This document shows positions 261 to 34,507 of a stretch of 49,694 nt of DNA, piece by piece (the stretch's first letter is position 1; each line of letters begins with the position of its first letter). A program made the position numbers and the translations under genes. Origin of the DNA: an uncultured Clostridia bacterium (GTDB lineage Bacteria > Bacillota > Clostridia > TANB77 > CAG-508); contig CANQDO010000076.1 in NCBI GenBank assembly GCA_947593355.1, positions 1 to 49,694 of the forward strand. Reading direction: 5' to 3'. The notes under the pieces are model-generated. The model was not told where the DNA came from. It made no database searches and worked only from the letters and a program-made list of their open reading frames with translations.

Positions 261-672
261 GAAAAAACCTAATTATATATTATGAAATATAAAATATTGG
301 TTTAAATTTTGTAATAATTATTTTTCCTTTGCGGAATAAAGGGTTTGGAGGAATTTTTGCAAAAATAAATATAAAATATACCCATTTTTCTATAAAAATT
401 ATAAGAAAAATGGGCTATTTTTTTATCAATCAGCCCAAAATGGTTTAAAATAAATAAATTTATGTACACCTAAGTAAAATAATTGTAACAAATGTAAAAA
501 AACTCATCAAATATTACAAATAAGTATTGAAAATGTAAAAGTAAACAATGTATCTATTTCCGTAAGAAATATGTCGAAAGGCGTTGAAAAGTGGAGAAAA
601 ATACCATTTACAAGCAAAAGTAAATGTGGAAAAATATATATTAATATACAAGGTTTTGTGTGGAGGTAACAA
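261..672 (+). other. Intergenic leader region before the giant gene
   Basis: No convincing gene is present. 381-424 holds a second terminator-like hairpin: an 11-bp stem, CCCATTTTTCT with AGAAAAATGGG, followed by seven T. From about 540 onward the sequence resembles the leader of the third adhesin gene (34372-34426). Both carry TCCGTAA (559-565 here) followed 48 bases later by TTTACAAG (607-614 here). A TTTCCGTA box lies at 557-564. A weak promoter-like pair, TTGAAA (527-532) and TATCTA (551-556), is possible but not convincing. The ribosome-binding site GGAGGT at 662-667 is 5 bases before the ATG at 673. Confidence 0.55.
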
Positions 673-3600
673 ATGAAAGAGGAAACAGGTAATCTAAGTA
701 AGGGAAAAGGAACGCATGAAGAGGCATGTGAAACGCAAGTAAAAGAAAAAGCATGTGAAGTGCAAGTAGGAGAAAAAGCATGTGAAACGCAAGTAAAAAC
801 ATGTGAAGTACAAGCAAAAGAAAAAGCATGTGAAAGCAAAGAAAGGAAGAAAACGAGTATGAATATCAGGGCTATATTTGAAAATTGCAAAAAGAAATTG
901 AAAGGTGCATTCAAAAAATGCAAAGAAACAATAAAAGAAACGTATAGAAATAGAAAGAAAGCTTATATAAGCGGATTCGCAAGTATACTTACAGTAGTAT
1001 TATTGGTAAGTATATTTAGCATGCAATTTCAAATAAACAAAACCGATATCCTAAGCACAACCTCAGCACAACAATTAGCCTCAAGTTCAAAATATGTTAT
1101 TTATAATGTAAATGATGAAGAATTACCTGTAGTAGATAGTGAAGGAAATGAAATAGGAACAAGAGAATTAATAGATGGAAAACAATATTACATAGTAGAA
1201 ACAGATGAAAGTGGAGATATAAATAAAGAATTATCTGAAGGTATATATAAGGTAGTAAAAGTAAATCAAGCAGATGAAACATATCAATTAGAAGATGAAA
1301 CATCATTCATACAAGTTTCAGAAAATAATGAAGTATCAGAAATAGAAGTACAAGAATTTAATATTACTAATACATATGTAGGACCAGAAATTAGTTCAAA
1401 AAAATCTTATACAACAGAATATAATAACAAATTTGTTGTAGAAGGTGAAAAAATTACATATACAATAACAGTAGAAAATAGTGGACATATGCCAAAACAA
1501 GTTGTTGTAAAAGATACTATTCCAGATGGAACTACATTAGAGCAAGGAACTATAAAAGTAGACCCTAAACAAGATAATGCTGGAGAAGAAGAGAAAGTTT
1601 ATACAGAAGATAATTTGAGAGAAGGAATTGTAGTAACAGTACCAGCAATTAAGCCAAAAGACGAAATACAAAGCGAATCTGCATCAAATAAAAATTCAGA
1701 TAGCGGATTAGAAGTAGCAGAATTAGATGCAGATGAACCAAAAGAAGTAACAGAAGTAAACGAACAAGAAGGAAATACAACAACAGGAGAAGAAGCAGAT
1801 GGATCAGTTGAAGATGAATCAGAAGGAATAAAGGGAAAAGTAACAATAACATTTGTTGTAAAAGTAAATAACTTAGATAAAGGAAAATATTCAAAAAAGA
1901 TAGAAAATACAGCAATGGTAGATGACGAGCCAACAGCAACAATAGAAGTAATGGTTAACAAAGAAGTACCAGTACAATTAGACGAAATAGAAGTAACAAA
2001 TACATACATTGGGCCAATAATAGATGAAGACAAAACATTTACGACACAAGAGGGTGAAGCATATGTTAAAGAGAACGAAAAAATAACATATAAAATAACA
2101 GTAGAAAATAGTGGATTAGTTGCAAAAAATGTAAAAATAAAAGATGTAATACCAGTAGGAACAACATTCGAATCAGAATCTATATTAATAGATGATGCAA
2201 AAACATATAAAGTAGATAAAAAGGTAACTGATGAAAAAGGAACACATATTGAACAAGAAGATAGAAATACAAAAGATTTAACACAAACAGACTTAACAAC
2301 AAATGGAATAGAAGTTACTGTACCAAAGGGAACACAAGCAGATGATGGAACAATAACAAATGGAAAAGTAACACTATCATTTGTTGTAACAGTAGATGAA
2401 TTTGGTGAAGAAGCAAATGGAAAACCAGATTATTCAAAAACAATAGTAAACATGGCAGAAGTAGATAATGTACCAACAAGAAAAGTAGTAGTTGTTGCTA
2501 CTAAAAATGAAGACGGAACTACAAAACAAGTTACTATTACAAAGAAAGATAGTAAAGATAAAAAAGGATTAGCAGGGGCACAATTTACATTAGAACCTAA
2601 GAAAACAGATATAACAAAACAAATGCAAACAGTGCAAGTAAAACCTGCATTACAAGTAACAAAGAAAATAACAAGTACACCAAAAAATAATGAAACATAC
2701 ACAGCAGGAGAAAGAATAAAATGTGAAGTAACTGTAAAAAATACAGGAAATGTAGCTTTAAAAGATGTAAATATAAAGGATAAAATATTAGAAAATATAG
2801 ATAATACAACAAGTACATTAATTGCAAAATATGAAGATGAAAATCAGTTTACACTATCAGAAGATTTGCTAGCAGGAGAAAGCAAAAAAATTACATATGA
2901 GTATGTTGTTACAGAAGAAGATATTACAAATGAAACATTAACAAATAAAACAAATGAAAATGTAGAAAGTATAACTGTAACTGCAAAAGCTATAACACCA
3001 GGAAATGACGAAGTTACAGCAAATAATACTACACCATCAGTAGCACAAAGTGTAGATACATATACATTTGAATTAGCAGAAGAAAAATATGTATCTAAAA
3101 ATAATGTAGAAAATTCAAAAGCTATAGCATATATTCCAATAGACTTAACAACACAAGATTCATATACAGGAAAAAATACATTAATAGTAAATGCTCAAAT
3201 AAATGGTGGAATAAGTGACTATGGTTATGCAATGGTAATAGAACAAAACTCTATACCAGAAGATTATGAATATAATGATTTAGATAAAGCATTTATAGCT
3301 ATTAATGGTGAAAAAGGTGCACAAGACTATAAAGTAACATTAGAAGGAACTAAAAAATATACATTAATATTAATATATGCTAAAGATGAAATAGCAAATG
3401 AAGGCTCATCAGATGCATTTACAATAAACAGTGTAAAAGTAGTACAAAATGAAGGTGGAAAAGAAGAAACAATAACTTTAGGAGAAACAGGAGAAGAAGG
3501 TACAACAAGTACAACAATACCATATGGTATTTATACATTAACAGAAACAAAAGCGCCAGAACACTATAAACAATTAGAAGGTTCTGTTACAATAGAAATA

Positions 3601-6600
3601 GGAGAACAAAATAAAATAGTACAAGATGCTAATGATGAAAAAGTTAAAGTAACATTAGAAGCGGACAATTTTGTAGTAGAAAATAAAACATCAAGAGTAA
3701 TAGTACACCATTATTTAAGAGGTACAGAAGATACTGAAAAACCTGTATCTGTATCACCTGATGAAGAATTAAAAGGTGTAGCAGGAAAAGATACATATGA
3801 AACTAAAGGAAAAGATGAGTTAGAAAAATATGAAAGAGAAACAGACAAAAATGGCGAACCAAAGAAACCAGAAGATAAAAATAAACAACAAGTAGAAGAA
3901 AGTGGAACATTTGAAGAAGAAGACAAAGAAGTATTCTACTATTATGTATGGAAAAAGGCAAACATACAAAGTGAATTAACAAAAACAAGTGATATAGAAA
4001 AAATAACACAAAAAGATCAACCAATAACATACAAAATACAATATAAAACAACCATAGAACAATATGAAGGAAATGCTACTATTACAATAGTAGATCATTT
4101 ACCATACCAGTTAGACCTAGATAATATGCAAGAAAAAGAAGATTTAGCAGATGGAAAATATGATGCAAATGCAAAAACAATAACATGGGAAATAACAGAA
4201 AAAGACATAAATACATATAGTGGTGGTAAAGATAGTCCTAAAAAGGTAATAACAATAACTAAAAATATAAGAGTAATATTTAAAGATATAGATGCAAATG
4301 CAACAAAAGTAGAAAATACAGTAGATGCAACATTACATTTAGAAACAACAGATCAAACAGAGAAAACGGACCCAGCTAAAAAAGAAATTCCAGCTGAGTT
4401 TAATAAAGATGTCACTGTAACTAAAACATGGGAATATGGAAATGAAAAGAATATTTATGCAAAACCATCAGGAGTAAAATTACAATTATATGATGAAAAA
4501 CACATGGAAACTCCAATAAATGAACCAGTAGAATTAAGAGCCGGAGAAGATGGAACATGGACATATACATTTAAAAACTTAAAGAGATTTAATCAAGACA
4601 ATGAAGAAATAATATATACAGTTAAAGAATTACCATTAGATAATGAAAGTTTAGATTATTATGCTCCAGAGATACAATCTACGGCAAATACAATAACTAT
4701 TGTAAACAGATATAAGGGACCAGAAATTAGTAAAGAAAAATCTGTAGAAATATATAATAAGGGTCAAAAAGTAGAAGAATCAACAAGAAAATATGCATTA
4801 GTAGAAGATACACTAAAATACACAATAACTGTAACAAATGCAGGTGGAGTAGAAAAAGAAGTAATAATAAAAGATTCAGCACCAGAAGGTTCAACATTTG
4901 TAGATGGCTCTATGAAAATAAATGAAAATGGAAAATATCAAGTAGAAGGTGCAGATGTAAGCACAAAAACAGAAGATGACTTAAAAGAGGGAATAAAAGT
5001 TACAGTACCAGCAAAAGAAGAAGAGAATGGAAAAATAACTTTAAGTTTTGAAGTAAACATAATAGATGACTTAACAAAAGACACTGGATTTACAAAGCAT
5101 ATAAAAAATAAAGCAACAGTAATTGATGAAGGTGCAGAAAATAAGCCAGAAGGTTATACGGAAGAAACAGAAGAAACAGATACTATTGTAAATAAATCAA
5201 ACATAGAATTTTCAAAAACTTCAACTCAAGAACAAGATAGTAAAATTGCAGCAAATGAAGAAATAGAGTATATTATAGAAGTAAAAAATACAGGAACAGC
5301 GCCAGAAGAAGTAAAAATACAAGATAGAGAACCTAAAGACACAACATATGTAGACAAAAGCTTCAGTATAGAGGAAGGTGATGTGGCAACAATAGCACTA
5401 CCTCCATATACAATGGATAATTTAAAAAGTGGAATAACTTTAACTTTAGAACCAAATAAAAAAGTAACAATAAAATTCAAAGTAAAAGTAAATGCAGTAA
5501 ATACGTATCATAATGCAGATAAAATTACAAATAAAGCAACAGTAAATAATCAAGAAACAGAAGAAGTAACACATAAATATGTAGAACCAATAATAAAACA
5601 AAGTAAAACAGCTACAGTACAAAGAAGCGAAGGATATGTATTAGAAAAAGAATTAATTACATACACAATAACTGTAACAAATGAAGGAGAAAAAGAAAAA
5701 GAAGTAGCTATAAAAGATCAAATTCCAAAGGAAGTTACACCTAAAGAAGAAACATTAACAATTACAGCTGGGGATAATAATATATTAGAATCTCATAAGA
5801 TACAAGAATTACAATCAGAAGAAGGATTAAAAGTTACAGTACCAGCAGCAGAAGATAAAGATACAAGTGGAGCAATAGATGAAACAGAATATGGAAAAGT
5901 AGTATTAACTTTCCAAGCAGGGGTAAATGCATTACCAGAAGGTATATTTGAAGAAACAATAAGAAATACAGCAAAAGTAGATGAAAAAGATACAGAAGAG
6001 ACAGAAACTCCAGTAAAGAAATCAAATGTAACAATAAGTAAAGTTGTAGTACAATCAGAAGAAAAAACAGAAGTAAAAGCAGAAGATACAATTACATATA
6101 AAATTATATTAGATAATGAATTAGGAACAGTAGAAGATACAGTAAAAGTACAAGATATATTACCTACAGGAGTATCTACAGATGGACAAGATTTAACAAT
6201 TAGAGAGGTAGGTAGTGAAACTCCAGTAGAAGGAACTTATTTATTAAGTAACTTAACAGGAAGCGGTATTGATATAAAAGTACCAGCAGGAAAACAAATA
6301 GCAATAACATATACAGTAAAAGTAACAGGAAGCGAATTAAGCAATGATCAAGAAATAACAAATACAGCCAAAATAGTAGATACAGATAAACAAAGCGAGG
6401 TAAAACATACTTACGTTGAACCTCTTATTAGTAGTGCAAAAGATGCAGAAATAATAAGTACAAACCCAGATCACGATGATGGCTATGCATTAGAAGGAGA
6501 TACTATTAAATATACAATAACATTAACAAATAAAGGTGGAGCAGAAGGAAAAGTAAAAGTAAAAGATATAATGCCAAGTCAAGTACAGTATACAGGAAAT

Positions 6601-9600
6601 ACACAAATAGAAGTTAAAGAAAATGGACAAAAAGCAGAAGGAAAAGAGTATACAATAGAACAATTAGTATCAGATGATGGAATAGAAGTTACAGTACCAG
6701 CAGCTACAAAATCAGAAAGTGGAAGAACAGCTAGTACAGTAACATTAACATTCGAAGTAAAAGTAAGTGAAAATATAGCATTAGGTGAAAATGGATATAA
6801 AATAACAGTAAAGAATACAGCAAATGTAGATGAAAATGAACCAAGTGAAGCAGAAACAGAAGTAAGAAAAGAACATATAACAGTACAAAAAACAGCTAGT
6901 CCACAAACCGGAACAAATGTAAAAAAGGATGATGTAATAAAATATACAATAACTATAACAAATGATGGTACAGCAGCAAAAACAGTAACAGTAAAAGATA
7001 AAATTCCAACTGGAACAAAATACAAAGAGAATTCTGTAGAGGTAGACGGTGATACTAAATATGTAAAAAATGGAGAATATAAAACAGACGGAGATGAAGG
7101 ACCAAGAATAGAAACAAAAGTTACAGTACCAGCAGCTACAGGAGAAGGGCCAGAAGATAAAAAACCTGGACAAGTAACAGTAAGTTTTGAAGTAACAGTA
7201 GAAAACTTAGATAACGAACAAGAAATAACAAATAAAGCAACAGTAGATGAACAAGAAACTACAACTGTAAAACATACATATATAGAACCTGTTATCAAAA
7301 GCAAAAAGAAAGCAGAAATAATAGGAAAAAATGGATTACCAATAGAAGATAGAAATTATGCATTAGAAGGAGAAAAAATAAGATATACAATAACAGTTAC
7401 AAATACAGGAGATTTAAAAGGAAATGTAACAATAAAAGATACTATTCCAAATGAAACAACATTTGTAGACCATAGTATAAAAGTAGATGGACAAACAACA
7501 TATCATGTAGATGAAAGACAGGAAACAACTACAGAAAAAACAAGTTCAAACTTAGAAAGTGGAATAGAAGTTACAGTACCAGCAAGAACTTCAGGAGAAG
7601 ATGGAGTAAAAAAAGAAGGACAAGTAGAATTAAGCTTTGAAGTAACAATAAATAAAACAACAGGAGCACCATATACAAGAAAAATAGAAAATACGGCTAC
7701 AGTAAAACATGATAAAGTTGATGGAGAAGACGAAACTCCAAAATCAGATGATGTTACAGTAAATAAACCACATGTAACTATAGAAAAGAAATCAGACACA
7801 GCAAATAGTGAAGTAGCAGTAGGTAATGAAATAACTTATGTAATAACAGCAACAAACGATGGATTTGCACCACAAGAAGTTCTTATAAAAGATATTATTC
7901 CAGCAGGAACTACATTTAAAGAAGATAGTGGCGTAACAGTTGAAGGAGCTAGCAATTATGTAAGTGGTAGCGAGTATAAAACTGAGGGAGAAGAAGGAAA
8001 AAGAATAGAGGTAAGAGCAATAGTACCAGCTGCCAAAGTAGAAGAAGAAGATTCTCTAATTAAAGGTGTAGTAACAGTACAATTTACAGTAACAGTAACA
8101 GGAAAGAAACAAGCAGAATCAGAAGAAGTAGAGCTTGAAAATGGAGAAAAAATTCAAAATATAGCAACAATAGTAAAAAATCCAGACGGAGAATCACAAG
8201 AAACAGAAACAACTCAACCAGCAGTAGAGCATACTTTTGTAAAGCCTATAATATCAGCAGAAAAGCAAGCAAAATTAAATAGTGAGCAAGAATATGCAAT
8301 AGAAGGAGACACAATAGAATATACAATAACATTGAAAAATGATGGAGACTATGAGGGAGAAGTAACAGTAAAAGATACAATACCAGAAGGAACAGAATTA
8401 GTAGGAAACATAACTATAGAGCCAAAACAAGATGAGGAACATGAAAGTGGTTATACTAAAGAAGAATTACAAGGTGGAATAAAAGTAAAAGTAGCAGCAA
8501 GAGAAAGTGAAGAAGATGTTGGAAAAACAGAAATAAAATTCACAGTACAAGTAAAACCTTTAAGCAAAGAAGATTCACATACAAAAACAATAGTTAACAC
8601 AGCATATGTTGGTGATGATGATGAAGGAACACCATCAGAAACAATTACAGTTAATGAATCTGAAATAGGATTGTCAAAAACAGCAAAAATAACAGATGAA
8701 GAATTAGAAAGTACTGATATAGATGCGCAAAAAGTAAAAATAGGCAGTAAAATAACATATACAATAACTGTAAACAACACAGGAACTGCTGTAGAAAAAG
8801 TAAAAGTAACAGACCAAATTCCAGAAGGAACTACATTTGATAATGAAAGTATAAAAGTTAACCAACAAGAAGAAAAGGCAAAAACACAAGAAGATTTAAC
8901 TAAAAATGGAATAGAAGTAACAGTAGAGCCAAGTGGAAGTGCGACAATAGAATTTACAGTAACAGTAACAGGAGAAAAAGCAGGAGAAGAATTAGACAGT
9001 AAAGTAAAATTAAATGATGGAGATAAAATTGTTAATAAAGCAAAGGGAACATATGGAAGTGATAAGAGCACAGATTCAAATAAAGTAGAAAGTACTTATA
9101 TTGAACCTATTATTAGTAGTGCGAAAAAAGCAAGTATAAAAAATACTGAATTAGGCTATGTAAAAGAAGGCGAAGAAATAACATATGAAATAACAGTACA
9201 AAATAAAGGTAGCTATAAAGGTGAAGTAATAGTAGAAGATACAATTCCACAAGGTACAGAATTTGTACAAGGCAGTGTAGAAGTTACAGGAGATGAAAAT
9301 TATTCAAAAGGAAATGAATATATTGAAGATGAACAAAAAGTTCAAGTTACAGTAACTGTACCAGCAGCTTCATCAAAGGAAGCACCAGGAGAAGTAAAAG
9401 TAAAATTTAGAGTTAAAGTACAAGATATAGAAGAAGAAGCTTTAACAAGAACGATAAATAATACTGCAAAAGTAACTCATAAAGGAAAACCAGAAAATGT
9501 AAAATCTGATCCAGTAATACAAAATAAAGCAAAATTATCAATAGAAAAGAAAATAAAAACAGCAAGTGAAGAGAAAAAAGATGGAGGAAAAGTTGCATTA

Positions 9601-15600: not shown

Positions 15601-18600
15601 GTAACAATAACATTTAAAGCAAAAGTAGATAATTTAACTGAACAAACATATACAGGAACAGTATCAAATACTGCTCAAGTAGATGATACCCCTGTACCAT
15701 CAACAGGAGTAACAGTAAATAAACCAAATATTACAGCTACAAAGACTTCTACAGTAGAAAATGGAATAAATACATTAAAAGCAAATGAAGTAACAAACGG
15801 AACAAAATTAAAATATACAATAACAGTAAATAACATAAACGGAACAGCACCAAAGACAGTAAAAGTAAAAGATACTATTCCACATGAAGTACAATTTGTA
15901 AGTGGAAGTATTGTAGTAGATAATCAACGAGAAGAATCTAAGGAAGAGCAAGATTTAATAAACGGTATAGACCTAACATTAAATCCAGGAGAAACAAAGA
16001 CAATAGAATTTGAAGTAACAGTACAAGACTGTGAAGACGATACAAATATAGTAAACAAAGCAACAGTAGATGAAGCAGAAGTACAAGCAGAAAATAAATA
16101 TGTTGAACCAAAAATTAGCGCTACAAAAGTAGGAAAAGTACAAGGAGCAGAAGATAGAGGTTACGCATTAGAAAAAGACATAATTGAGTACACTATAACA
16201 ATAAAAAATGAAGGATTACTAGCAAAAGATGTAAAAGTAACTGATAGTAATATAGCAGGAGCTCTAGCAGAAGGAAAAGTAACAGTAGCTCCATTACCAC
16301 CAGAGGGACCACAAGAAGGTTATGACGTAACAGATTTAACATCAGAAGGAATAACAGTAAGAGTACCAGCTGCAACAAAATCAGAAGAAGGAGTTGTTAC
16401 ACCAGCAGAAGTAACATTAACATTTAATGCAAGAGTAAATGCAATACCAGAAGGTTATGAAGCACAAGTAACAAATACAGCAAATGTAGATGAAAAAGAC
16501 GTAACATCAACACCAGTGGATGTAAAGAAACCACATATAGTAGCTTCTAAATCATCAGATAAGCAAGAAAAAACAGTAAAAGCAGGAGACACAATTACAT
16601 ATACAATAACATTAGATAACCAAGGAACAGCCCCTGGAACAGCATTAGTAAAAGATGAAAAAATAACTCAAACACAAGGAATTTCATATACAAGAGAAGC
16701 AACAGTTACAGTTACAGGAGTAGAAGGATTAGACAATAAGACAATAGGTGACTTAATAGGCGAAGGAATTAGTGTAGAAGTACCAGCAGGAAAACAAGTA
16801 ACACTTTCATTTACAGTATCAGTTACAGGAGACTCATTAAATAATAAAGCAGAAATAACAAACGTAGCTAGTGTAAATGGACAAAATACACCAGAAGTAA
16901 CCGACACATTTGTAAAACCAATAATAGAAGTTACAAAGAAAGCAGAAATAAGAGATAAAGTACAAGATAGAGACTATGCAGTAGAGGGAGACACAATTAT
17001 CTATACTATAGTAATAGCAAATAAAGGTGGAGCAGAAGGAACAGTTAAAATTAAAGAAGAAATGCCAGCAGAAGTAAGTTATGAAGAAAGCGGAAAAGTA
17101 ACAGTAAAGGACGTAACAGACGGAGAAACAGGAGAAGAAAAAGAACAATATACAATACAAAACTTATTAGAAGGACAAAATGTAACAGTAGAAGCAGGTA
17201 AAACATTAGAATTAAGCTTTGAAGTAACAGTAGAACCATTTGGAGATACAGAACAAGGTACAACAAAGAAAGTAGTAAACAAAGTTGTTGTAAATGATAA
17301 AGAAGATGAACCAAAACAAGCAGAAATAACAGTAAATACTGCAGATATAGCAGGAAGTAAGAAAGCAGAAATAATGGATGGAGCAGAAGGATTAGAAGAA
17401 AATCAAGTAACAAAAGGAACAAAGATAAAATACACAATAACTGTAACAAATAATGGAGATGCAGACGGAAAAGCAGTTGTAAAAGATATTGTACCAGAAG
17501 GAACAAAACTTGTACCAGATAGCGTACAAGTTGATGGAGATCCAAGTCACTCAATAAGTCAAGAATACAGCGAAGAAACAAAACAAATAGAAGAAACAGT
17601 AACAGTAAAAGTAGGCGGAAATGTAAAAGTAAGCTTTGAAGTAATAGTAGAAGACTTAGAAGATGGTAAAACAATTCAAAACTCTGCTTCAGTAAATGAT
17701 GGATCAACAACTAGTGTACAACATACATATGTAGAGCCAGTAATTACTGCTACAAAATCAGCAAGTCCAGAAACTGGATCAAAAGTAGTAGCAAATCAAG
17801 AAATTAAATACACAATTACAGTAACAAATACTGGTAGAGCAAAAGCAACAGCAACAGTAAAAGATGAAATACCAGACGGAACAATATTTAAGGAAAGAAG
17901 CATAAAAGTAAAAGGAGCAGAAGAATCAGAAAAAGATGCTTCAAGCTTAAGAGAAGGTATTCAAGTAGAGGTACCAGCAGCAACAGATCTAGATGGAAAT
18001 GGAATAATAGATGATGGAGAAGAAGGAAAAGCTACAGTAGAATTTACTGTAAAAGTTAAACCAGAAAATGAAATGGATGATTTAGCAACAATAGAAAACG
18101 AAGCTACAGTAACAGAGCCAAAAACAGATGCAAATATAACAACACCAACTGTAACACATACTTATACAGAGCCAAATATCACAGCTTCAAAGACAGCACA
18201 AGTTACAGAAAGAAAAGATCCAAAAAATGCAAGCGGATTATCAAATACTCAAGTTACAGTAGGAGATAAAATTAAATATACAATTACAGTAACAAACAGT
18301 GGACATGCAGATGGAACAGCTGTAGTAAAAGATGTTCTTCCAAAGGGTGTACAATATAGTGATGAATTTACAGTAGTAGGAGACAAATCAGGAGCATTAC
18401 ATGACATTAATCAATTAACATCAGAAGAAGGAATGACTGTAACAGTACCAGCAAAAACTGGTGAAGAAAATGGAAAAGTAACAATAAGCTTTACAGTAAC
18501 AGTAGTAGATGGTCAAGATGATAATGCAATGAGCAACGGTGATAAAATAGTTAACAAAGCTACAGTAAATGGAAATATAACAACTGAAGAAGTAACACAT

Positions 18601-21600
18601 ACTTATGTAGAGCCAGATATGACAGCTAAGAAAGAGGCTGAAATAGTAGGATTAGATGATGTAAAATTAGAAAGAAACTATGCATTAGAGGGAGATACAA
18701 TTAAATACACAATTACAGTAACAAATAAAGGTGAAGCAAATGGACAAGTAACAATTAAAGATACAATTCCACAAGGAACTTCATTTGTACCAGAAAGCAT
18801 AAAAGTTGATGGAGCATTAGATACTAAGGAAAGCTATGATTTAAGTGATTTAACATCAAACGGAATAATAGTTACAGTACCAAAAGCAAATAACGCAGAT
18901 GAAGATCCAGAAATATCAGAAGCAGAAGAAACAAAAGTAACAGTAACATTCAAAGTAACAGTAAACCCAATGGGTGAAGATGAGTTAACAGAGAAAATAA
19001 AAAATACAGCTGATGTAAACGGTAAAGAAGTACCATCAGAAGATGTAGAAGTAGATAAACCACAAATTTCTATAACAAAATCTTCTGACCCAGAAAATAA
19101 AGCTAAAGTAAAAGCAGGACAAGATATAACATATTCTATAAAGGTTGCAAATAAAGGAACAGCACCAGAACAAGTATTAATTAAAGATACAATACCAGCA
19201 GGAACAGAATATGTAGTAGAAGATGGCATAACAGTAGAGTCAAGTGACGGCTCTGTAGAAGACTTACACGAAACATACACATTAGAACAATTAACAGAAA
19301 ACGGAATTGAAGTAAAAGTACCAGCAGGAAAAGATAGTAATAATGATGGAAATATAAGAGATGATGAAGCTGGAACAGTAACAGTAAGCTTTAAAGTAAA
19401 AGTAACAGGAAAAGGAAAGACAAACGGACAATTTATTGAAAACACAGCTGAAGTAGACGAAGAACCAGAAAACGGTGAAAATATACCAAGAAGATCAAAT
19501 AAAGTACAACATGAATATATAGAAGCAATAATTTCAAGTATAAAGACTGCACATACACAATATGAAAAAGCATATGTAGTAGCAGGAGAAGAAATAACAT
19601 ATACAATTACATTAACAAATGATGGAGACTTAGAGAAAGAAGTACTTGTAAAAGATACAATTCCACAAGGAACAGACTTCGTTGAAGAATCACTTGAAGT
19701 TAAGAGTGGAGAAGATACTATATCACATGAAATAAGTGAATTAACTGGAGAAGGAATTAGAGTTAAAGTACCAGCAGCTACAGAAGAAACACCATTAGTT
19801 TCAAGAACAAGCGGAATAGCTACAATAACATTCAAAGTTAAAGTAAAAGAAACTAAAGACTTAACAGATGTAACAGACATTATAAACGTAGCAGAAGTAA
19901 ACAAAGATCCAGATAATACACCAGAACCAGGATCAGAAAATCCAAATGTACAACGTCCAGAAGTAACAACACCATTAGTAAGTTATGAAAAGACTGCAGA
20001 AATAACAAGAGCAGAAGAACCTCAAGAAGACCTAGAAAGTACATTACAAGAAAATCAAGTAACTGTAGGAGACACAATAACATATACAATTACTGTAAAG
20101 AATAAAGGTACTAAGGAAGTAACAGGAATTACAATAGAAGATAAAGTACCAGATGGAACAGAGCTTATAAGAATAGATAAAGAAGAAACTTTACCAACAG
20201 ATAAGGGAAGCTATGAAGATACTACAAATACAATTACATGGACAGTAAACGAAATAGCACCAGGAACAACAAAACAAGTAAGTTTTACAGTAAAAGTAAA
20301 ATATACAGAAGATGAAGAAGTAACAATAACTAACGTAGCTAAAGTAGACGATAAAGAAACAAATACAACAGAACATGAATATGTAAAACCAGAGCCAGAA
20401 TTAATAGAAAAGAATGTAACAAAGACATCTTCAACACCAGAGATAGTAACAAAAGAAGGAAGAGTATCTTATGAAGTAACATTCAAAGCAAAAGTAGATA
20501 AATTTGTAGGAAAAGCAAAGATAACAATGATAGATACTTTACCATACCCATTAGATTTAGAAGAAATGCAACAAATTGCAGAGGAAAACGGAATAGATAC
20601 TTCAGAAGAAAATTGGCTAGAACAACTATTCAAGGGCGGAAAATATGCACAAACAGATAATGATGACGGAAGCAAGAAATATACAATTACATGGGAAGAA
20701 TATGCAGAAGATATAGATACATTCAAAGATGGCAATGTTCAAGAAATAACAAGAACAAAGACATTAGAATTAAAATATGCATACGGCAAATTAGACGGAA
20801 CAGTTAGCGAGTTAGTAAATAAAGTAGAAGCTAAGATAGACTTAATAGAACCATCAGATGATGGAGATGAAATTGTAAAACCAGACGAAGATCCAGCAGA
20901 AGCAGAAGTAAAAATACCAATGAAAATAGAGTCAACAGTTACAACACATCACTACATCTACGATCCAGAATTACCAGAAGGAGAACAATACACAACTGAA
21001 CAATTAGCAGATGATGAACAACAAACAGGAAAAATAGGTGAACATTATACAACAGAACCATCAAATCAAGTACCTGCAAACTATGAGTGTAAGAATTCAA
21101 CACCTGAAGGAAAAGACGGATTATTTGAAGATGAAGATAAAGAAGTAACTTACTACTATCAATTAAAAACACCACAAGTTTCAAGTCAAATAGATAAAAC
21201 AATTGTAGTAAAAGAAGGCGGAGCAGTAAAAGAAGAAAAAGCAGAGGAAGAACCAGATGTAGTAACTACAAAAGTATTAACAAAAGAAGGCGGACTTGTA
21301 GAATATGACATAACATACACAGCACATGTAAAAGATTACATTGGTAAAGTAAAAGTAGAAATAGTAGATACATTACCAGCACCAATAGATAAATCTAAGT
21401 CAGATTTACAAGATGGAGAATATAGTGAAGAAGACAATACAATAACATGGACAGAAACTATAAATGATGTAGATACTTTTGCAGGCAACGGTGAAGAATA
21501 TGCAGACGGAACATTTACAAAGACATTTACAAAACACATATCAGTAGTATATGTAGTTGAAGATAAAGTAGCAGAGTTAGAAAACACTGTAACAGGATCA

Positions 21601-24075
21601 ACAAAAGTTTACTATCCAGATATACACACAACAACACCAGGAGAGGAACAAGATGTAGGTAGCGAAGATCCAGAAGACACAGAAACATTAGAACAAGATT
21701 ACAAGATGAAATTCACACTTGAGAAAGTTTGGGAAGATGAAGATAATCATCCAGACGCTGTAGATATAACAATAGATGCTAAAGATGCTCGCAAACTTGA
21801 AGATGGAACAAGAGAAGATTATACTAGCGAAACACAAAGATTAGATTCAACTAACAACTGGACATTTACAGAGGACGAAACACTACAAAAATATGATGAA
21901 GATGGAAACAGAATAGAATATGTAGTAACAGAGTATGAAGTAAATGATGGCGACTTAGAGGATTATGCAAAACCAAAAGTAGAGATGATAGCATCAAGTG
22001 ATGAGTTAAGCGATATGAACAACTACATAATAAGAGTAACAAACTCATACATAGCATACGATATGGACTTAGATACAGAAATGATAAAAGAAGTAACTAA
22101 GATAAACAACAAAGAAATAGGTTCAAAAGACGGAGACGAAACAATAACAGGTATGTCATCAGCAACAGACAAAGTATCATATAGGTTAGAATTTAGTGCT
22201 TACTTAGAAGAATATGAAGGTGAAAAAGCTAAATGGACTATAGTAGATACATTACCATATGCAATAGATGAACGTGCTTCAAACTTAGCAGGAGGAAAAT
22301 ACGAAGAAGTTGAAGACCCAGAAACAGGAGAAATGGAATACAGAATAACATGGTCAAAAGATGTAGAAAGCATAGCTACGGATGATGATGGTAGATTTAC
22401 TATAACAAAAGACATTTCACTAGTATTTAAAGATGTAGATCCAACACAAGCTACCTTAAAGAATACAGCAGAAGGAACAATACTATTAAAGTCAGAAAAG
22501 AACGGAGATACAGCAAAAGCAACAACGACATTAGACATGAATATTGAAGGAAAAGTAATAGTTAGATACGTATATATTGATCCAGAAGATCCAGATCATA
22601 AAGAGAAAGATATAGCACCACAAGAGGAAATTCAAGGTAGAATAGGAAGCTCATACAATACAGACGTAGATACAAACGAAGCAGGAGAGCCATTAAGAAA
22701 AGAACACATACCAGGTTATGTATTAGAAAGTGATAATGGAAAGACAAAAGGAACATTTGATGAAGAAGAACGAATAGTAATCTACTACTATACAAGAGCA
22801 GAAGGAAAAGTAACAGCAAAATATGTAGATGAAAATGGAAACGACATAATACCACCACAAGTTCAAACAGGAAAAGTCGGAGACCCATTTGAAACAGAAC
22901 AAAAGACCTTCGACGGCTATAGACTAAAAGAAGTACAAGGAGACAAAGAAGGAACATATACAGAAGAAGAACAAACAGTAAAATATGTATACGAAAGAAT
23001 ACCTGCAGAAGTAATAGTAAGATACTTAGAGAAAGGTACAAATAGAGAATTAGCACCACAATATACTATGGAAGGCCACGTAGGAGACCCATATCAAGCA
23101 TCAAGAAAATCAATAGACAACTACAGAGCAGTAGAGCCAGAGCCAACAAATAGTACAGGAAACATGACAGAAGCTACAATAACAGTAACATACTATTACG
23201 AAAGAATACCAAGTGGAACAGTAAGAGTAAAATATCTAGATGTAGACACTAAAGAGGAATTAACATACATGGAAGAACATCCAGATGGAACAATGGAAGA
23301 AAAGACATACGGCTATGACATAACAGGAAATGCAGGAGACAAATACACAACAGAAGAAAAAGAAATACCATATTACAACTTATTCAAGAAACCAGAAAAT
23401 GCAGCAGGAGAATTAACAGAAGACGGCGATACAGTAATCTACTATTATCAAAAGAAACCATTTAACTTCAGTATAGAAAAAGTATTCAAGAGTGTAATAC
23501 TAAATGGTGAAGTAAAGAATATAACAAACAACAAGTCAACAAAAGTAGAAATAGTAGCTGCAACAATACCATATGCAAAACTACAAGTAACATATAAGAT
23601 TATTGTAAGAAACACAGGCGAAATAAACGGTAAAGCAAAAGTAATTGAAATGTTACCACAAGGCTACAGATTGGTAAATCCAGCAAACTATTGGGCACAA
23701 ATGCCAGACGGAACACTAGAATCAATAGTAGAACTAAAAGCCGGAGAAACAAAAGAACTAGAAGTAACGCTTGAATGGATAAACTCAAACGACAACTTCG
23801 GAATCTTCGACAACACAGCAAAAATGGTAGACATAGAAAACGAAGCAAACTTCAAAGAAACATCAAAAGACGATAACACATCAACAGCAGAATTGATTAC
23901 AAGTATCAAGACAGGTATGGAAGAAAACGTTATATTAATATCAACAGGAATAGGCTTAATAATAACACTATGCATACTAGTATATCTATACGAAAAATAC
24001 AACAAAGAAAGAGGCATACCAATGAGAAAAATTAAGATAGAGAACAAGAAGATAGTAATCAAGAAAGAGAAGTAA
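673..24075 (+). CDS. Giant DUF11/D2-repeat surface protein, 7800 aa
   Basis: Predicted cell-surface stalk or adhesin. In order: cytoplasmic Cys-containing 9-residue repeats (about 18-60); Lys-rich stretch; membrane segment (about 97-117); SpaA-like fragment (139-228); two DUF11 domains; a SpaA domain split by a DUF11-like domain and a 110-residue domain (about 616-993); MucBP (about 1006-1093); Cna-B (about 1243-1343); about 36 DUF11/D2 repeats (about 1346-6573); further MucBP, Cna-B and DUF11-like modules, with four consecutive MucBP near 7293-7595; a last DUF11-like domain; a transmembrane helix (about 7750-7771) and a Lys-rich tail. There is no LPXTG, so the anchor is probably the helix itself. 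GGAGGT five bases upstream supports the ATG at 673; the ATG at 859 would drop the Cys repeats. Eight repeats carry EF-hand-like loops. Adhesion is inferred from domain type only; the ligand is unknown. Confidence 0.9.
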   Translation: MKEETGNLSKGKGTHEEACETQVKEKACEVQVGEKACETQVKTCEVQAKEKACESKERKKTSMNIRAIFENCKKKLKGAFKKCKETIKETYRNRKKAYISGFASILTVVLLVSIFSMQFQINKTDILSTTSAQQLASSSKYVIYNVNDEELPVVDSEGNEIGTRELIDGKQYYIVETDESGDINKELSEGIYKVVKVNQADETYQLEDETSFIQVSENNEVSEIEVQEFNITNTYVGPEISSKKSYTTEYNNKFVVEGEKITYTITVENSGHMPKQVVVKDTIPDGTTLEQGTIKVDPKQDNAGEEEKVYTEDNLREGIVVTVPAIKPKDEIQSESASNKNSDSGLEVAELDADEPKEVTEVNEQEGNTTTGEEADGSVEDESEGIKGKVTITFVVKVNNLDKGKYSKKIENTAMVDDEPTATIEVMVNKEVPVQLDEIEVTNTYIGPIIDEDKTFTTQEGEAYVKENEKITYKITVENSGLVAKNVKIKDVIPVGTTFESESILIDDAKTYKVDKKVTDEKGTHIEQEDRNTKDLTQTDLTTNGIEVTVPKGTQADDGTITNGKVTLSFVVTVDEFGEEANGKPDYSKTIVNMAEVDNVPTRKVVVVATKNEDGTTKQVTITKKDSKDKKGLAGAQFTLEPKKTDITKQMQTVQVKPALQVTKKITSTPKNNETYTAGERIKCEVTVKNTGNVALKDVNIKDKILENIDNTTSTLIAKYEDENQFTLSEDLLAGESKKITYEYVVTEEDITNETLTNKTNENVESITVTAKAITPGNDEVTANNTTPSVAQSVDTYTFELAEEKYVSKNNVENSKAIAYIPIDLTTQDSYTGKNTLIVNAQINGGISDYGYAMVIEQNSIPEDYEYNDLDKAFIAINGEKGAQDYKVTLEGTKKYTLILIYAKDEIANEGSSDAFTINSVKVVQNEGGKEETITLGETGEEGTTSTTIPYGIYTLTETKAPEHYKQLEGSVTIEIGEQNKIVQDANDEKVKVTLEADNFVVENKTSRVIVHHYLRGTEDTEKPVSVSPDEELKGVAGKDTYETKGKDELEKYERETDKNGEPKKPEDKNKQQVEESGTFEEEDKEVFYYYVWKKANIQSELTKTSDIEKITQKDQPITYKIQYKTTIEQYEGNATITIVDHLPYQLDLDNMQEKEDLADGKYDANAKTITWEITEKDINTYSGGKDSPKKVITITKNIRVIFKDIDANATKVENTVDATLHLETTDQTEKTDPAKKEIPAEFNKDVTVTKTWEYGNEKNIYAKPSGVKLQLYDEKHMETPINEPVELRAGEDGTWTYTFKNLKRFNQDNEEIIYTVKELPLDNESLDYYAPEIQSTANTITIVNRYKGPEISKEKSVEIYNKGQKVEESTRKYALVEDTLKYTITVTNAGGVEKEVIIKDSAPEGSTFVDGSMKINENGKYQVEGADVSTKTEDDLKEGIKVTVPAKEEENGKITLSFEVNIIDDLTKDTGFTKHIKNKATVIDEGAENKPEGYTEETEETDTIVNKSNIEFSKTSTQEQDSKIAANEEIEYIIEVKNTGTAPEEVKIQDREPKDTTYVDKSFSIEEGDVATIALPPYTMDNLKSGITLTLEPNKKVTIKFKVKVNAVNTYHNADKITNKATVNNQETEEVTHKYVEPIIKQSKTATVQRSEGYVLEKELITYTITVTNEGEKEKEVAIKDQIPKEVTPKEETLTITAGDNNILESHKIQELQSEEGLKVTVPAAEDKDTSGAIDETEYGKVVLTFQAGVNALPEGIFEETIRNTAKVDEKDTEETETPVKKSNVTISKVVVQSEEKTEVKAEDTITYKIILDNELGTVEDTVKVQDILPTGVSTDGQDLTIREVGSETPVEGTYLLSNLTGSGIDIKVPAGKQIAITYTVKVTGSELSNDQEITNTAKIVDTDKQSEVKHTYVEPLISSAKDAEIISTNPDHDDGYALEGDTIKYTITLTNKGGAEGKVKVKDIMPSQVQYTGNTQIEVKENGQKAEGKEYTIEQLVSDDGIEVTVPAATKSESGRTASTVTLTFEVKVSENIALGENGYKITVKNTANVDENEPSEAETEVRKEHITVQKTASPQTGTNVKKDDVIKYTITITNDGTAAKTVTVKDKIPTGTKYKENSVEVDGDTKYVKNGEYKTDGDEGPRIETKVTVPAATGEGPEDKKPGQVTVSFEVTVENLDNEQEITNKATVDEQETTTVKHTYIEPVIKSKKKAEIIGKNGLPIEDRNYALEGEKIRYTITVTNTGDLKGNVTIKDTIPNETTFVDHSIKVDGQTTYHVDERQETTTEKTSSNLESGIEVTVPARTSGEDGVKKEGQVELSFEVTINKTTGAPYTRKIENTATVKHDKVDGEDETPKSDDVTVNKPHVTIEKKSDTANSEVAVGNEITYVITATNDGFAPQEVLIKDIIPAGTTFKEDSGVTVEGASNYVSGSEYKTEGEEGKRIEVRAIVPAAKVEEEDSLIKGVVTVQFTVTVTGKKQAESEEVELENGEKIQNIATIVKNPDGESQETETTQPAVEHTFVKPIISAEKQAKLNSEQEYAIEGDTIEYTITLKNDGDYEGEVTVKDTIPEGTELVGNITIEPKQDEEHESGYTKEELQGGIKVKVAARESEEDVGKTEIKFTVQVKPLSKEDSHTKTIVNTAYVGDDDEGTPSETITVNESEIGLSKTAKITDEELESTDIDAQKVKIGSKITYTITVNNTGTAVEKVKVTDQIPEGTTFDNESIKVNQQEEKAKTQEDLTKNGIEVTVEPSGSATIEFTVTVTGEKAGEELDSKVKLNDGDKIVNKAKGTYGSDKSTDSNKVESTYIEPIISSAKKASIKNTELGYVKEGEEITYEITVQNKGSYKGEVIVEDTIPQGTEFVQGSVEVTGDENYSKGNEYIEDEQKVQVTVTVPAASSKEAPGEVKVKFRVKVQDIEEEALTRTINNTAKVTHKGKPENVKSDPVIQNKAKLSIEKKIKTASEEKKDGGKVALNGEITYVIYVKNSGPAKEEVKIKDFIPKGTKLVAGSIKIDDQDTYKEQTLSNKDENDLGRGLEVTVPAKHDEIDGQVKVEFKVRVDGNKTSEGKLQDREIIQNQASVENEKEETQVSNTVQNTYVEPIISGAKKAELVSATEEPIKGREYALEGDRIKYTITVMNKGGIEKVVKIEDTIPSGTKLVEGSLKVEGDSNFSGGKDYNEQTPKIDVSVTVPAATTDKAFGEDVTDDEAGKVTLTFEVTVKELVDVYEEKITNQAIVDGQETQTTTTEVKKPNISVNKTSNTKEKVTIGDEIVYTITVVNEGTAPEEVLVKDAIPAGTKLVSVKIGEDPQDGVTAESLAKGLKVTVPAATTQDEKVNGQVLVEVTVQVTGTKDLEGTKIKDREKIENIAKVNENPAEPDETENEKSSEKVERTYVEPIIESTKTLKVYDKDGVEEITTEERGETLYALEGEIIEYTITVTNKGGLAKDVTIKDSLPAHTHFVDNSVKVNGNGETQVKVGQQSMQAQNVKQNQLGNGVIVNVPSAITDKPSDQDVTEDEAGKVTLSFRVKIDSMEEGTYKQTITNTANVDTKETTQADVEVRKPHVTIEKTSNTVKQKVAKDDEIEYTITLTNDGYAPAEVLVKDVIPEGTEYKANTLKVNKEDKNDQISSLQGEGLTVTVPAAEDTNQDSQINEDEKKKVTIEFTVTVTGQKQADGELENNTPIRNTATLYKDPQDKDTPEKQETTKPVEHTYVKPIITSKKVAKILDADEQPVQDRTYALAGDKIEYTITITNSGDYKGTVNVKDDMPEGVEYTGQDSVTVTTKGQVEVKQYNIDNLKQGFEVEVPAKTDSENGQVTVTFKVTVKELTDHSTHKTTINNVATVGEKTPSSETIVNEAALAISKTSKVTDDGLEDADKEAKNVKVGSIITYTITVTNDGTAPETVKIEDTIPEGTEFVANSIKINNDGDYKVDNGEVSVSTKTEDELKSGISVEVPAKVDANKGKLVLTFEVKVTGKKKDGSRLANGDKIENTGYIEHTGGTRDDSTTENTYIEPIISSAKKAEIFVEEEQPAQRDYALRGDTIKYTITVKNTGAYKGKVTIKDSIPEGTTFVADSIKVTGAPDALESYGETDLTENGITVTVPAANDKNHNTEIDDTEAGIVVLTFKVTVDKMQGEETTKKINNIATVTHKKVQDDPEEPEIKQEPNAEVTVKRPEIKVEKFATASTETNNVTVGDSITYRIVFTNSGDAEGKVKVKDVIPDHTELEAQTIKINDSGTYLGKDLNINGEQTLNDGIEITVPAKTERGNGEVTLEFVVDVQDTDDQTTIENFATVNKDTTDPESQDKQTNKVTNKYVEPVIEREKTATIENVKDRTYAMEGDRIKYTITVTNKGGLEKLVTIKDDAPKGTKFVQDSIEVEGATDIRDDYTLEELKGEGINVTVPAAEDIDEDGQIGEEEEKKVTLSFIVEVEKLQDGKYTTIIENTATVDGTQTPKVETTVNKANIEVEKTSETAKKVKVDDKITYKITVTNKGEAVGEVTLKDKAPEGTEYESLTVEPNTPDYTYEKLSSEGGLKVTIPAAQDTNGNKTIEENEYTKVTLTLVVKVTGKGTGEIELNDGYTIKNVAKYTVDGKETDTDEVTHEYVKPVISSAKVSNVAEDDKVESGDEITYTITVTNKGGLETTVKVADKAPDGTKFKPNSIKVNGQLTEDGEEQLTAGINVPVKAQVEDTPGTGTLEFTVTVNSMNELENGATISNVATVDGDETEEVQDTYAKPIITSEKIAQVVVGEDIQERRDYVAEGETIRYTITIKNSGDAEGTVKVKDRMPQEVQYSADVKIKVNGEEDSNYTVQQLVSDEGIQVKVPAKTDDGDGKVTLSFDVTVGTGFANEANGYTTTITNNATITHNGEEQTAKAETTLKKEHITSTKKGTIQNADDRNYALEGDVIEYTITIENDGTLEKDVKVIDKDVKGAQIIDKIKVEPDQNGVSEFNPQDLTTGITVTVPAKTESNGKVTITFKAKVDNLTEQTYTGTVSNTAQVDDTPVPSTGVTVNKPNITATKTSTVENGINTLKANEVTNGTKLKYTITVNNINGTAPKTVKVKDTIPHEVQFVSGSIVVDNQREESKEEQDLINGIDLTLNPGETKTIEFEVTVQDCEDDTNIVNKATVDEAEVQAENKYVEPKISATKVGKVQGAEDRGYALEKDIIEYTITIKNEGLLAKDVKVTDSNIAGALAEGKVTVAPLPPEGPQEGYDVTDLTSEGITVRVPAATKSEEGVVTPAEVTLTFNARVNAIPEGYEAQVTNTANVDEKDVTSTPVDVKKPHIVASKSSDKQEKTVKAGDTITYTITLDNQGTAPGTALVKDEKITQTQGISYTREATVTVTGVEGLDNKTIGDLIGEGISVEVPAGKQVTLSFTVSVTGDSLNNKAEITNVASVNGQNTPEVTDTFVKPIIEVTKKAEIRDKVQDRDYAVEGDTIIYTIVIANKGGAEGTVKIKEEMPAEVSYEESGKVTVKDVTDGETGEEKEQYTIQNLLEGQNVTVEAGKTLELSFEVTVEPFGDTEQGTTKKVVNKVVVNDKEDEPKQAEITVNTADIAGSKKAEIMDGAEGLEENQVTKGTKIKYTITVTNNGDADGKAVVKDIVPEGTKLVPDSVQVDGDPSHSISQEYSEETKQIEETVTVKVGGNVKVSFEVIVEDLEDGKTIQNSASVNDGSTTSVQHTYVEPVITATKSASPETGSKVVANQEIKYTITVTNTGRAKATATVKDEIPDGTIFKERSIKVKGAEESEKDASSLREGIQVEVPAATDLDGNGIIDDGEEGKATVEFTVKVKPENEMDDLATIENEATVTEPKTDANITTPTVTHTYTEPNITASKTAQVTERKDPKNASGLSNTQVTVGDKIKYTITVTNSGHADGTAVVKDVLPKGVQYSDEFTVVGDKSGALHDINQLTSEEGMTVTVPAKTGEENGKVTISFTVTVVDGQDDNAMSNGDKIVNKATVNGNITTEEVTHTYVEPDMTAKKEAEIVGLDDVKLERNYALEGDTIKYTITVTNKGEANGQVTIKDTIPQGTSFVPESIKVDGALDTKESYDLSDLTSNGIIVTVPKANNADEDPEISEAEETKVTVTFKVTVNPMGEDELTEKIKNTADVNGKEVPSEDVEVDKPQISITKSSDPENKAKVKAGQDITYSIKVANKGTAPEQVLIKDTIPAGTEYVVEDGITVESSDGSVEDLHETYTLEQLTENGIEVKVPAGKDSNNDGNIRDDEAGTVTVSFKVKVTGKGKTNGQFIENTAEVDEEPENGENIPRRSNKVQHEYIEAIISSIKTAHTQYEKAYVVAGEEITYTITLTNDGDLEKEVLVKDTIPQGTDFVEESLEVKSGEDTISHEISELTGEGIRVKVPAATEETPLVSRTSGIATITFKVKVKETKDLTDVTDIINVAEVNKDPDNTPEPGSENPNVQRPEVTTPLVSYEKTAEITRAEEPQEDLESTLQENQVTVGDTITYTITVKNKGTKEVTGITIEDKVPDGTELIRIDKEETLPTDKGSYEDTTNTITWTVNEIAPGTTKQVSFTVKVKYTEDEEVTITNVAKVDDKETNTTEHEYVKPEPELIEKNVTKTSSTPEIVTKEGRVSYEVTFKAKVDKFVGKAKITMIDTLPYPLDLEEMQQIAEENGIDTSEENWLEQLFKGGKYAQTDNDDGSKKYTITWEEYAEDIDTFKDGNVQEITRTKTLELKYAYGKLDGTVSELVNKVEAKIDLIEPSDDGDEIVKPDEDPAEAEVKIPMKIESTVTTHHYIYDPELPEGEQYTTEQLADDEQQTGKIGEHYTTEPSNQVPANYECKNSTPEGKDGLFEDEDKEVTYYYQLKTPQVSSQIDKTIVVKEGGAVKEEKAEEEPDVVTTKVLTKEGGLVEYDITYTAHVKDYIGKVKVEIVDTLPAPIDKSKSDLQDGEYSEEDNTITWTETINDVDTFAGNGEEYADGTFTKTFTKHISVVYVVEDKVAELENTVTGSTKVYYPDIHTTTPGEEQDVGSEDPEDTETLEQDYKMKFTLEKVWEDEDNHPDAVDITIDAKDARKLEDGTREDYTSETQRLDSTNNWTFTEDETLQKYDEDGNRIEYVVTEYEVNDGDLEDYAKPKVEMIASSDELSDMNNYIIRVTNSYIAYDMDLDTEMIKEVTKINNKEIGSKDGDETITGMSSATDKVSYRLEFSAYLEEYEGEKAKWTIVDTLPYAIDERASNLAGGKYEEVEDPETGEMEYRITWSKDVESIATDDDGRFTITKDISLVFKDVDPTQATLKNTAEGTILLKSEKNGDTAKATTTLDMNIEGKVIVRYVYIDPEDPDHKEKDIAPQEEIQGRIGSSYNTDVDTNEAGEPLRKEHIPGYVLESDNGKTKGTFDEEERIVIYYYTRAEGKVTAKYVDENGNDIIPPQVQTGKVGDPFETEQKTFDGYRLKEVQGDKEGTYTEEEQTVKYVYERIPAEVIVRYLEKGTNRELAPQYTMEGHVGDPYQASRKSIDNYRAVEPEPTNSTGNMTEATITVTYYYERIPSGTVRVKYLDVDTKEELTYMEEHPDGTMEEKTYGYDITGNAGDKYTTEEKEIPYYNLFKKPENAAGELTEDGDTVIYYYQKKPFNFSIEKVFKSVILNGEVKNITNNKSTKVEIVAATIPYAKLQVTYKIIVRNTGEINGKAKVIEMLPQGYRLVNPANYWAQMPDGTLESIVELKAGETKELEVTLEWINSNDNFGIFDNTAKMVDIENEANFKETSKDDNTSTAELITSIKTGMEENVILISTGIGLIITLCILVYLYEKYNKERGIPMRKIKIENKKIVIKKEK
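724..852 (+). repeat. 27-bp repeats encoding ACETQVKEK-type units at the N terminus
   Basis: Five tandem units lie at 724-750, 751-777, 778-798 (a short 7-codon unit), 799-825 and 826-852. Each encodes (A/T)CE followed by a Lys/Glu-rich stretch, and each has one Cys. They lie before the first membrane segment, so they should face the cytoplasm unless the later ATG at 859 is the true start. Confidence 0.85.
4710..20390 (+). repeat. About 36 DUF11/D2-type domains in tandem (protein-level repeat array)
   Basis: I counted 36 successive copies of the core xITYTITVxNxG...VxIKDxIPxGT, each about 145 residues. Each domain begins with a strand holding a conserved Lys (for example SSAKKAEI) and ends with a strand of the form NxATV. 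Two linker classes alternate: (T/H)YVEPIIS followed by YALEGD, and VxKPxVxIxKTS followed by VGDEI. The repeat unit is therefore a pair of domains, about 0.85-0.95 kb of DNA. Alternation is regular from about 4.7 to 14.5 kb and is broken near 14.5-15.8 kb and 17.7-18.6 kb. The Lys/Asn pattern fits isopeptide-forming D2-type domains; the bonds are inferred, not seen. Confidence 0.85.
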
Positions 24076-24082
24076 ACTATTA

Positions 24083-24113
24083 GGGACGGGGTTAAATAGT
24101 TTAACCCCATCCC
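24083..24113 (+). terminator. Hairpin after the giant gene
   Basis: A 14-bp stem (24083-24096 with 24100-24113, one mismatch) has a 3-base TAG loop and begins GGGACGGGGTTAAA. It is followed only by the AT-rich AATTATTTAT, not a clean T run. It may terminate weakly or allow read-through into the paralogue 90 bases downstream. Confidence 0.55.
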
Positions 24114-24202
24114 AATTATTTATAATATTATTATGCATAATGATTTAGTATCATACAATGAGTATTTATAACATTATTAATAAAAATATGGAGGATGAGT
24201 AA

Positions 24203-34371: not shown

Positions 34372-34507
34372 ATCCGTAAACGAATAGCGAAAATGGTCGA
34401 AAAATAGCAAAAACCGCTATTTACAAGTAATATAAAAATATGCCAAAATATATATAAATAATATCTTTTAATTTACAAAGAAAAGCAAATATATGGAGGT
34501 AGAATTA
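34372..34507 (+). promoter_or_regulatory. Leader of the third adhesin gene, similar to that of the first
   Basis: TCCGTAA (34372-34378) and TTTACAAG (34419-34426) are 47 bases apart, as in the leader of the giant gene (48 bases). A 7-bp inverted repeat, AATAGCG (34382-34388) with CGCTATT (34414-34420), can close a stem-loop between them. GGAGGT at 34495-34500 sets the start at 34508. No clear promoter hexamers were found. Confidence 0.4.

Follow-up and report, generated by a model that had tools for sequence, protein, structure and literature searches.

A 7,800-residue clostridial surface protein with 36 consecutive CLIPPER/DUF11 domains, a probable fibrillar adhesin

A contig of 49,694 nucleotides from an uncultured Clostridia bacterium (CANQDO010000076.1 of assembly GCA_947593355.1; hereafter the window) carries a single gene, at 673..24075 of the forward strand, for a protein of 7,800 amino acids (~858 kDa) in which 36 CLIPPER/DUF11-D2 domains follow one another without interruption, each with the Lys-Asp/Glu-Asn triad of isopeptide-bond domains. 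This protein, here called the giant, represents an already known type of stalk, like those of fibrillar adhesins. It is probably a cell-wall-anchored fibrillar adhesin whose stalk would work as an isopeptide-locked, nearly inextensible tether. What is new is the completeness of the triad, a domain order shared with a homologue of diverged sequence, the class of giants to which the protein belongs, and a domain without a Pfam name. A preliminary description, made from the DNA letters, had pointed out the long frame and its repeats. The window is contig C76 of a draft genome (1.52 Mb, 76 contigs, 96% complete) and has a GC content of ~30%.

The Domain Array

The frame starts with ATG, six nucleotides downstream of a GGAGG ribosome-binding site (662..666), and contains no internal stop, in agreement with the uninterrupted 23.4-kb frame first described. 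Given the frame's own base composition, 7,800 stop-free codons would occur by chance with a probability of ~10^-294, and the five other frames over the same gene hold 153-1126 stops. A profile built from the giant's own repeats (E<1e-3) finds 40 domains: three before the array, 36 contiguous ones at residues 1335-6561 (4675..20355), and one at the C-terminus. The earlier estimate of about 36 consecutive domains thus turned out to be exact, and the four domains outside the array (residues 223-419, 435-600, 643-770, and 7602-7748) bear out the "at least four" proposed with it; an extra domain at residues 6558-6700 is marginal (E 0.0023).

The three public models that had been suggested for comparison, PF01345, TIGR01451, and TIGR04226, all match the array, with fewer than 36 domains passing any of them singly. 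PF01345 covers residues 1335-4727 with E 5.9e-126, and the first 23 array domains, the piece given to Pfam, match PF01345, DUF7927, and DUF7507. On the two pieces into which the array was divided, TIGR04226 gives E 1.5e-137 and 5.2e-72 (17 and 7 stretches) and TIGR01451 matches 23 and 11 stretches. The SpaH/EbpB major pilin model NF033902 reaches 47.3 and 20.1 bits, below its cut-off of 95. Structure prediction had likewise been suggested; AlphaFold2 predicts array domains as confident beta-sandwiches (pLDDT 88.7) whose fold matches BcpA, RrgB, and antigen I/II, so that the models agree with the CnaA-like beta-sandwich of a CLIPPER/DUF11-D2 domain. A search of PDB sequences with two array domains alone returned only a chance match (E 0.7).

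DUF11 is now named CLIPPER and described as an isopeptide-bond domain; the triad in one DUF11 crystal structure is K715, D748, and N806, and part of the DUF11 domains lack it (PMC12617251). In the profile alignment of the giant, all 36 array domains and three of the four outside the array possess the triad. Lys22, Tyr44, Ile46, Asn50, Gly52, and Asn139 (profile positions) are invariant over the array; at position 62, 35 domains have Asp and one has Glu. The span from Lys to Asn measures 104-141 residues per domain, which sums to 4,198 of the 5,198 residues between the first Lys and the last Asn, and the linkers that separate each Asn from the Lys of the following domain have 24-37 residues. 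Formation of isopeptide bonds throughout the array is predicted from these positions. Among homologous proteins, 794 of 831 domains keep the triad; this count starts from 983 domain rows, which include the 2650-residue neighbor described below but neither the giant nor P0001 (the same gene in another assembly), and leaves out 152 partial or gapped rows. The 37 domains without it suggest a fold that can do without the triad, although 32 of them come from P0039, P0040, and P0041, where the profile may have put the Lys in the wrong place. No clean split of the array domains into two clusters, A and B, was found; an A/B alternation is suggested by a mean identity of 0.37 at lag 2 versus 0.32 at lag 1 and by linker motifs, and it is broken in places.

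Order and Divergence of the Repeats

The homologue search, which is no census, scored 652 candidates that reached at least 0.55 of the giant's length and yielded 43 proteins of 4346-7903 aa, one of which (P0001) is the same gene. In a ranking set of 45 sequences made up of these, the giant, and its 2650-residue neighbor, the giant is second by length, after P0006 (7,903 residues), and fourth by uninterrupted run (46, 40, 40, and 36 domains). Its description as among the largest bacterial proteins is therefore too strong as worded: its length does not stand out within its class of homologues, and a 7651-aa adhesin has also been published (PMC10619420).

The most informative homologue is P0002, a protein of 4,700 residues that is 60% identical to the giant and ends inside the array. 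It has 26 comparable domains, array domains 1-23 among them, and each of them is most similar, at 51-75% identity, to the giant's domain of the same number. P0002 is probably syntenic and from a different but related species, because a penicillin-binding protein (PBP) 77% identical to that of the window is apparently encoded on its 47,738-base contig. By comparison, P0003 and P0005 share 94-100% identity in domains 1-34, yet contain 46 and 40 domains. The median best internal domain match is 45.8% in the giant (maximum 53.8%), against 79.2% in P0003 and 78.0% in P0005. With the giant's repeats this far apart in sequence (median 46%), recombination would hardly be able to alter their number. 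We read the diverged array as one that may no longer recombine, its repeat number thus being frozen and its length staying fixed, on one comparison of each kind (P0002; P0003/P0005). The kept order at 51-75% identity, set against a near-identical pair that differs by six domains, makes it a testable matter whether stalk length is selected or frozen.

The absence of stops had been taken to imply strong selection. That argument is weak by itself; better evidence for selection lies in the order shared with P0002, in the 36 triads, and in dN 0.09 versus dS 0.71 for the C-terminal 241 codons, which lie outside the array, compared with a paralogue on contig C70.

Long frames in two other genomes (G008, G023) were considered as counterparts of the array and rejected, since they are not co-linear with it, and open frames of 24160 and 25428 aa in two genomes of the genus were dropped as almost wholly N.

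Surface Anchoring and Terminal Modules

The protein was initially called a surface protein, and three features support this view: a hydrophobic segment near the N-terminus, a KTG-transmembrane-basic tail at the C-terminus, and sortases in the genome (seven matches, of which six are full-length and the seventh lies in a frame of ~100 residues). The C-terminal SIKTG motif, with the transmembrane segment and basic tail behind it (23902..24072), is a putative sorting signal. An IKTG-x-x-E pattern searched at the DNA level occurs at four sites in the genome, each ending a DUF11 protein, versus one for a reversed-pattern control. S/N-I/V-KTG stands near the C-terminus in 30 of the 43 homologues and KTG in 33; of the ten lacking it, three (P0001, P0002, and P0016) seem to break off ahead of any anchor. 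One homologue has FPKTGDEG, near the classical LPXTG. Since Pfam and TIGR-type profile scans of the giant matched no known anchor model, we only infer that a sortase uses this tail. The C-terminal region of a 2184-aa paralogue (G000:C70 17417-18139) is 84% identical to the giant's, which suggests that anchor modules have been exchanged or duplicated.

At the other end, a tail of ~98 residues with a KACEVQV-type mini-repeat (673..966), presumably cytosolic, precedes a hydrophobic segment at residues 99-117 (967..1023) that would be a signal peptide or a signal anchor. Seven of the eleven cysteines lie in this tail, mostly within the KACE(V/T)QV mini-repeat, and the remaining chain is nearly Cys-free. 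In P0002 the tail is ~200 residues long and its mini-repeats are unlike those of the giant. A clear hydrophobic segment occurs within the first 260 residues of 31 of the 43 homologues; in 28 the preceding tail has at most 30 residues, and the long-tailed exceptions are P0001, P0002, and P0028.

Between hydrophobic segment and array lie two D2 domains (1339..2472) and a DUF11/DUF7507 domain (2599..2982), the latter found by both the own-repeat profile and Pfam and seemingly inserted in a SpaA/CnaB-like domain whose split was read by eye. They are followed by a domain at 3031..3444 that matched nothing in Pfam at E<=1 and is predicted, in a weak model (pLDDT 66), to be jelly-roll-like; it is matched in 20 of 117 genomes of the family. 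Cna_B domains (PF05738) precede and follow the array (4411..4641 and 21715..21945). On its wall side come MucBP domains (PF06458) at approximately 22540..23457, with outer bounds set by eye and five stretches matched in 20356-24072 (best 22807-22995). The last DUF11-type domain (23476..23916) has Glu in place of Asp, and its Asn is not aligned. Candidates for an adhesive region are the MucBP domains and, on the N-terminal side, the weakly modeled jelly-roll-like domain.

Proposed Function and Alternatives

In the reading that we favor, the Lys near the start of each domain would bond to the Asn near its end, so that the 104-141 residues enclosed could not be extracted under force. The C-terminal tail would act as a sortase signal, with the MucBP domains on the wall side, and the N-terminal modules (two D2, SpaA/CnaB-like, and jelly-roll-like) would make up the distal tip, whose target would be glycan, mucin, or another cell; adhesion as such is deduced from this architecture. 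At ~4 nm per domain, 36 domains should reach more than 100 nm, and the array would hold the tip at least 100 nm off the wall. Should every one of the 36 bonds form, the array would rank among the longer single-chain tethers that are locked covalently. A bolder and distinctly tentative proposal is that of a fixed-length molecular ruler, a locked tether of 36 links whose number and order stay constant across species, the opposite of the Periscope proteins discussed below, with a new jelly-roll tip domain common to the giant surface proteins of the family.

That the array is an artifact of assembly, several genes joined or a wrong number of repeats, is very improbable. P0001, from a 37.5-kb contig of another assembly, corresponds to residues 1-6179 of the giant with four substitutions, three of which fall within its final 12 residues, and without an indel; its 6,179 residues are co-linear with the giant over 37 domains and end inside array domain 34. 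The longest exact DNA repeat within the array measures 30 bases, and no exact repeat of at least 21 bases was found near the P0001 break (searched over 1-32200). Misassembly over residues 1-6179 is unlikely because P0001 agrees without an indel and no repeat in the array exceeds 30 bases; the order across 26 domains of P0002 speaks in the same direction. What keeps the suspicion alive is the draft state of the genome with its 76 contigs, the end of both P0001 and P0002 inside the array, apparently at contig ends, the coverage of residues 6180-6561 by the window assembly alone, without a second witness, and the reads behind P0001, which are possibly not independent of those of the window.

Two further explanations concern how the stalk is held and what it binds. 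If the N-terminal segment were an uncleaved signal anchor, both ends of the protein would be held in the membrane and the array would form a long loop or coat in place of a free tether. The 98-residue tail ahead of the segment, with a start codon backed by GGAGG, agrees with this, as do a similar hydrophobic segment in P0002 and in a paralogue on contig C68 and a cleavage site that is not obvious by eye; but 28 of the 31 homologues with a clear segment have tails of ordinary signal-peptide length, and long n-regions also occur in cleaved signal peptides, which makes this arrangement unlikely. Alternatively, the stalk could be a linker to matrix, other bacteria, or its own kind, with the host not being the target. 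The only solved-structure sequence match of the array is the "grappling hook" protein GhpA of Aureispira, and biofilm roles have been proposed for giant adhesins (PMC10619420). The likeness to GhpA is confined to DUF11-like repeats, no partner is known, and the MucBP domains point rather to mucus, so we regard such a linker as possible and a wall-anchored adhesin as the better reading.

Genomic Setting and Distribution

Directly 3' of the giant's stop codon lies a hairpin (24083..24113, forward strand; 24060-24130 folds with -21.6 kcal/mol, z -4.58). Exact stretches of 31-33 bases from this hairpin-forming sequence (24073-24113) recur on contigs C67, C68, and C6, on both strands. The sequence could be a palindromic element dispersed in the genome or a shared terminator. 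Neither Rfam nor tRNA scans gave a match anywhere in the window. Downstream, on the same strand, a second surface protein of 2650 aa (24203..32155, TTG start) has a run of four D2 domains, CnaB, MucBP, and the same SIKTG tail. Genes for a SpoVD-type PBP and for LemA adjoin the locus.

The region upstream of the giant (1-672) closely resembles that of the C68 paralogue (G000:C68; L068 1780-2530, minus strand), a frame of 644 aa truncated where its contig ends; its three D2 domains are 47-54% identical to the giant's first three. Owing to both resemblances, the genome may hold a second giant.

Further along the window, 33115-34125 encodes a protein of 336 aa that includes a G5 domain and, by eye, resembles SleB-type wall hydrolases in its C-terminal part. 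Two surface-protein frames, 34493-39484 (SpaA) and 39465-45149 (CnaB, MucBP), overlap by 20 bases in different frames. The overlap falls within a repeat run, propeller-like by eye, with no homopolymer at the site, and the second frame stops just past its CnaB match, without an anchor; together they look like a single gene split by a frameshift. A comparable break at another site is seen in G018:C2 near 39798-39808.

The giant's C-terminal 243 residues are matched in 37 of 56 genomes (all 27 of the genus, its own included, all nine of the rest of the family, and one of 20 belonging to the order's other families), where weak matches may reflect general DUF11 similarity. Its N-terminal 1,334 residues are matched in nine of the 27 genus genomes, again including its own, and elsewhere only piecewise, at no more than 54% identity among the matches listed. 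Of 117 family genomes, 78 have TIGR04226 domains, and in 37 these exceed the cut-off. In the genome G137, from another genus of the family, 17 D2 domains lie in a frame of 7,428 residues that is free of N.

Comparison with Known Systems

A literature search for giant DUF11 stalks of this type led to the CLIPPER survey, to the Mobiluncus adhesin, and to a survey of huge proteins, and, among the papers listed, to no account of the giant's own family. The antigen I/II C-terminal domains, PrgB, BcpA, and RrgB have the same predicted fold as the giant's domains, with few domains per chain versus a run of 36. Isopeptide bonds are reported for several of these proteins, SspB among them. Pilins polymerize, whereas the giant is one chain. 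GhpA (9flp, 5898 aa), from the Gram-negative predator Aureispira, is likewise a giant chain with DUF11-like repeats; its similarity to the array is low (E 1.3e-10 with the array profile, best single stretch 0.005).

Closest in kind are the stalk domains of the CLIPPER survey, DUF11 (PF01345) and RrgB_K2N_iso_D2 (TIGR04226), which belong to the same family and show the K-D-N triad and tandem repeats in fibrillar adhesins; the survey also reports two related families in alternation (PMC12617251). The giant differs in having 36 domains in one run, all with the triad, which some DUF11 domains of the survey lack (PMC12617251). The huge-protein survey names DUF11 among the domains of such proteins (PMC11573180). 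Measured against the published features of fibrillar adhesins (PMC9210967), the giant has the large length and a repeat region that is probably rod-like; as a candidate surface anchor it has the KTG-transmembrane-basic tail together with the seven sortase matches, with no known anchor model matched.

In size, the nearest counterpart is the Mobiluncus mulieris adhesin of 7651 aa with 51 Ig-like domains, and a 1.5-MDa Marinomonas adhesin has also been published (PMC10619420). The Mobiluncus protein and the giant share their size class, a single gene, and a cross-linked stalk, the latter predicted in the giant; unlike the former, the giant has one predicted bond type and no LPXTG, and while 21 domains separate the Mobiluncus mulieris adhesin from the M. 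curtisii relative (PMC10619420), the giant and P0002 keep 26 of 26 comparable domains. Tandem-repeat stalks are known to gain and lose repeats and thereby to change length, as in the Periscope proteins, which resemble the giant in their rod-like tandem repeats and in their attachment to the wall, probable for the giant (PMC9704523). The high inter-repeat identity that defines Periscope proteins contrasts with the 45.8% median and 53.8% maximum of the giant, and P0001 and P0002 are co-linear with it over 37 and 26 domains, two comparisons that both end inside the array. Periscope repeats are highly identical and variable in number (PMC9704523); those of the giant are divergent and, where compared, constant.
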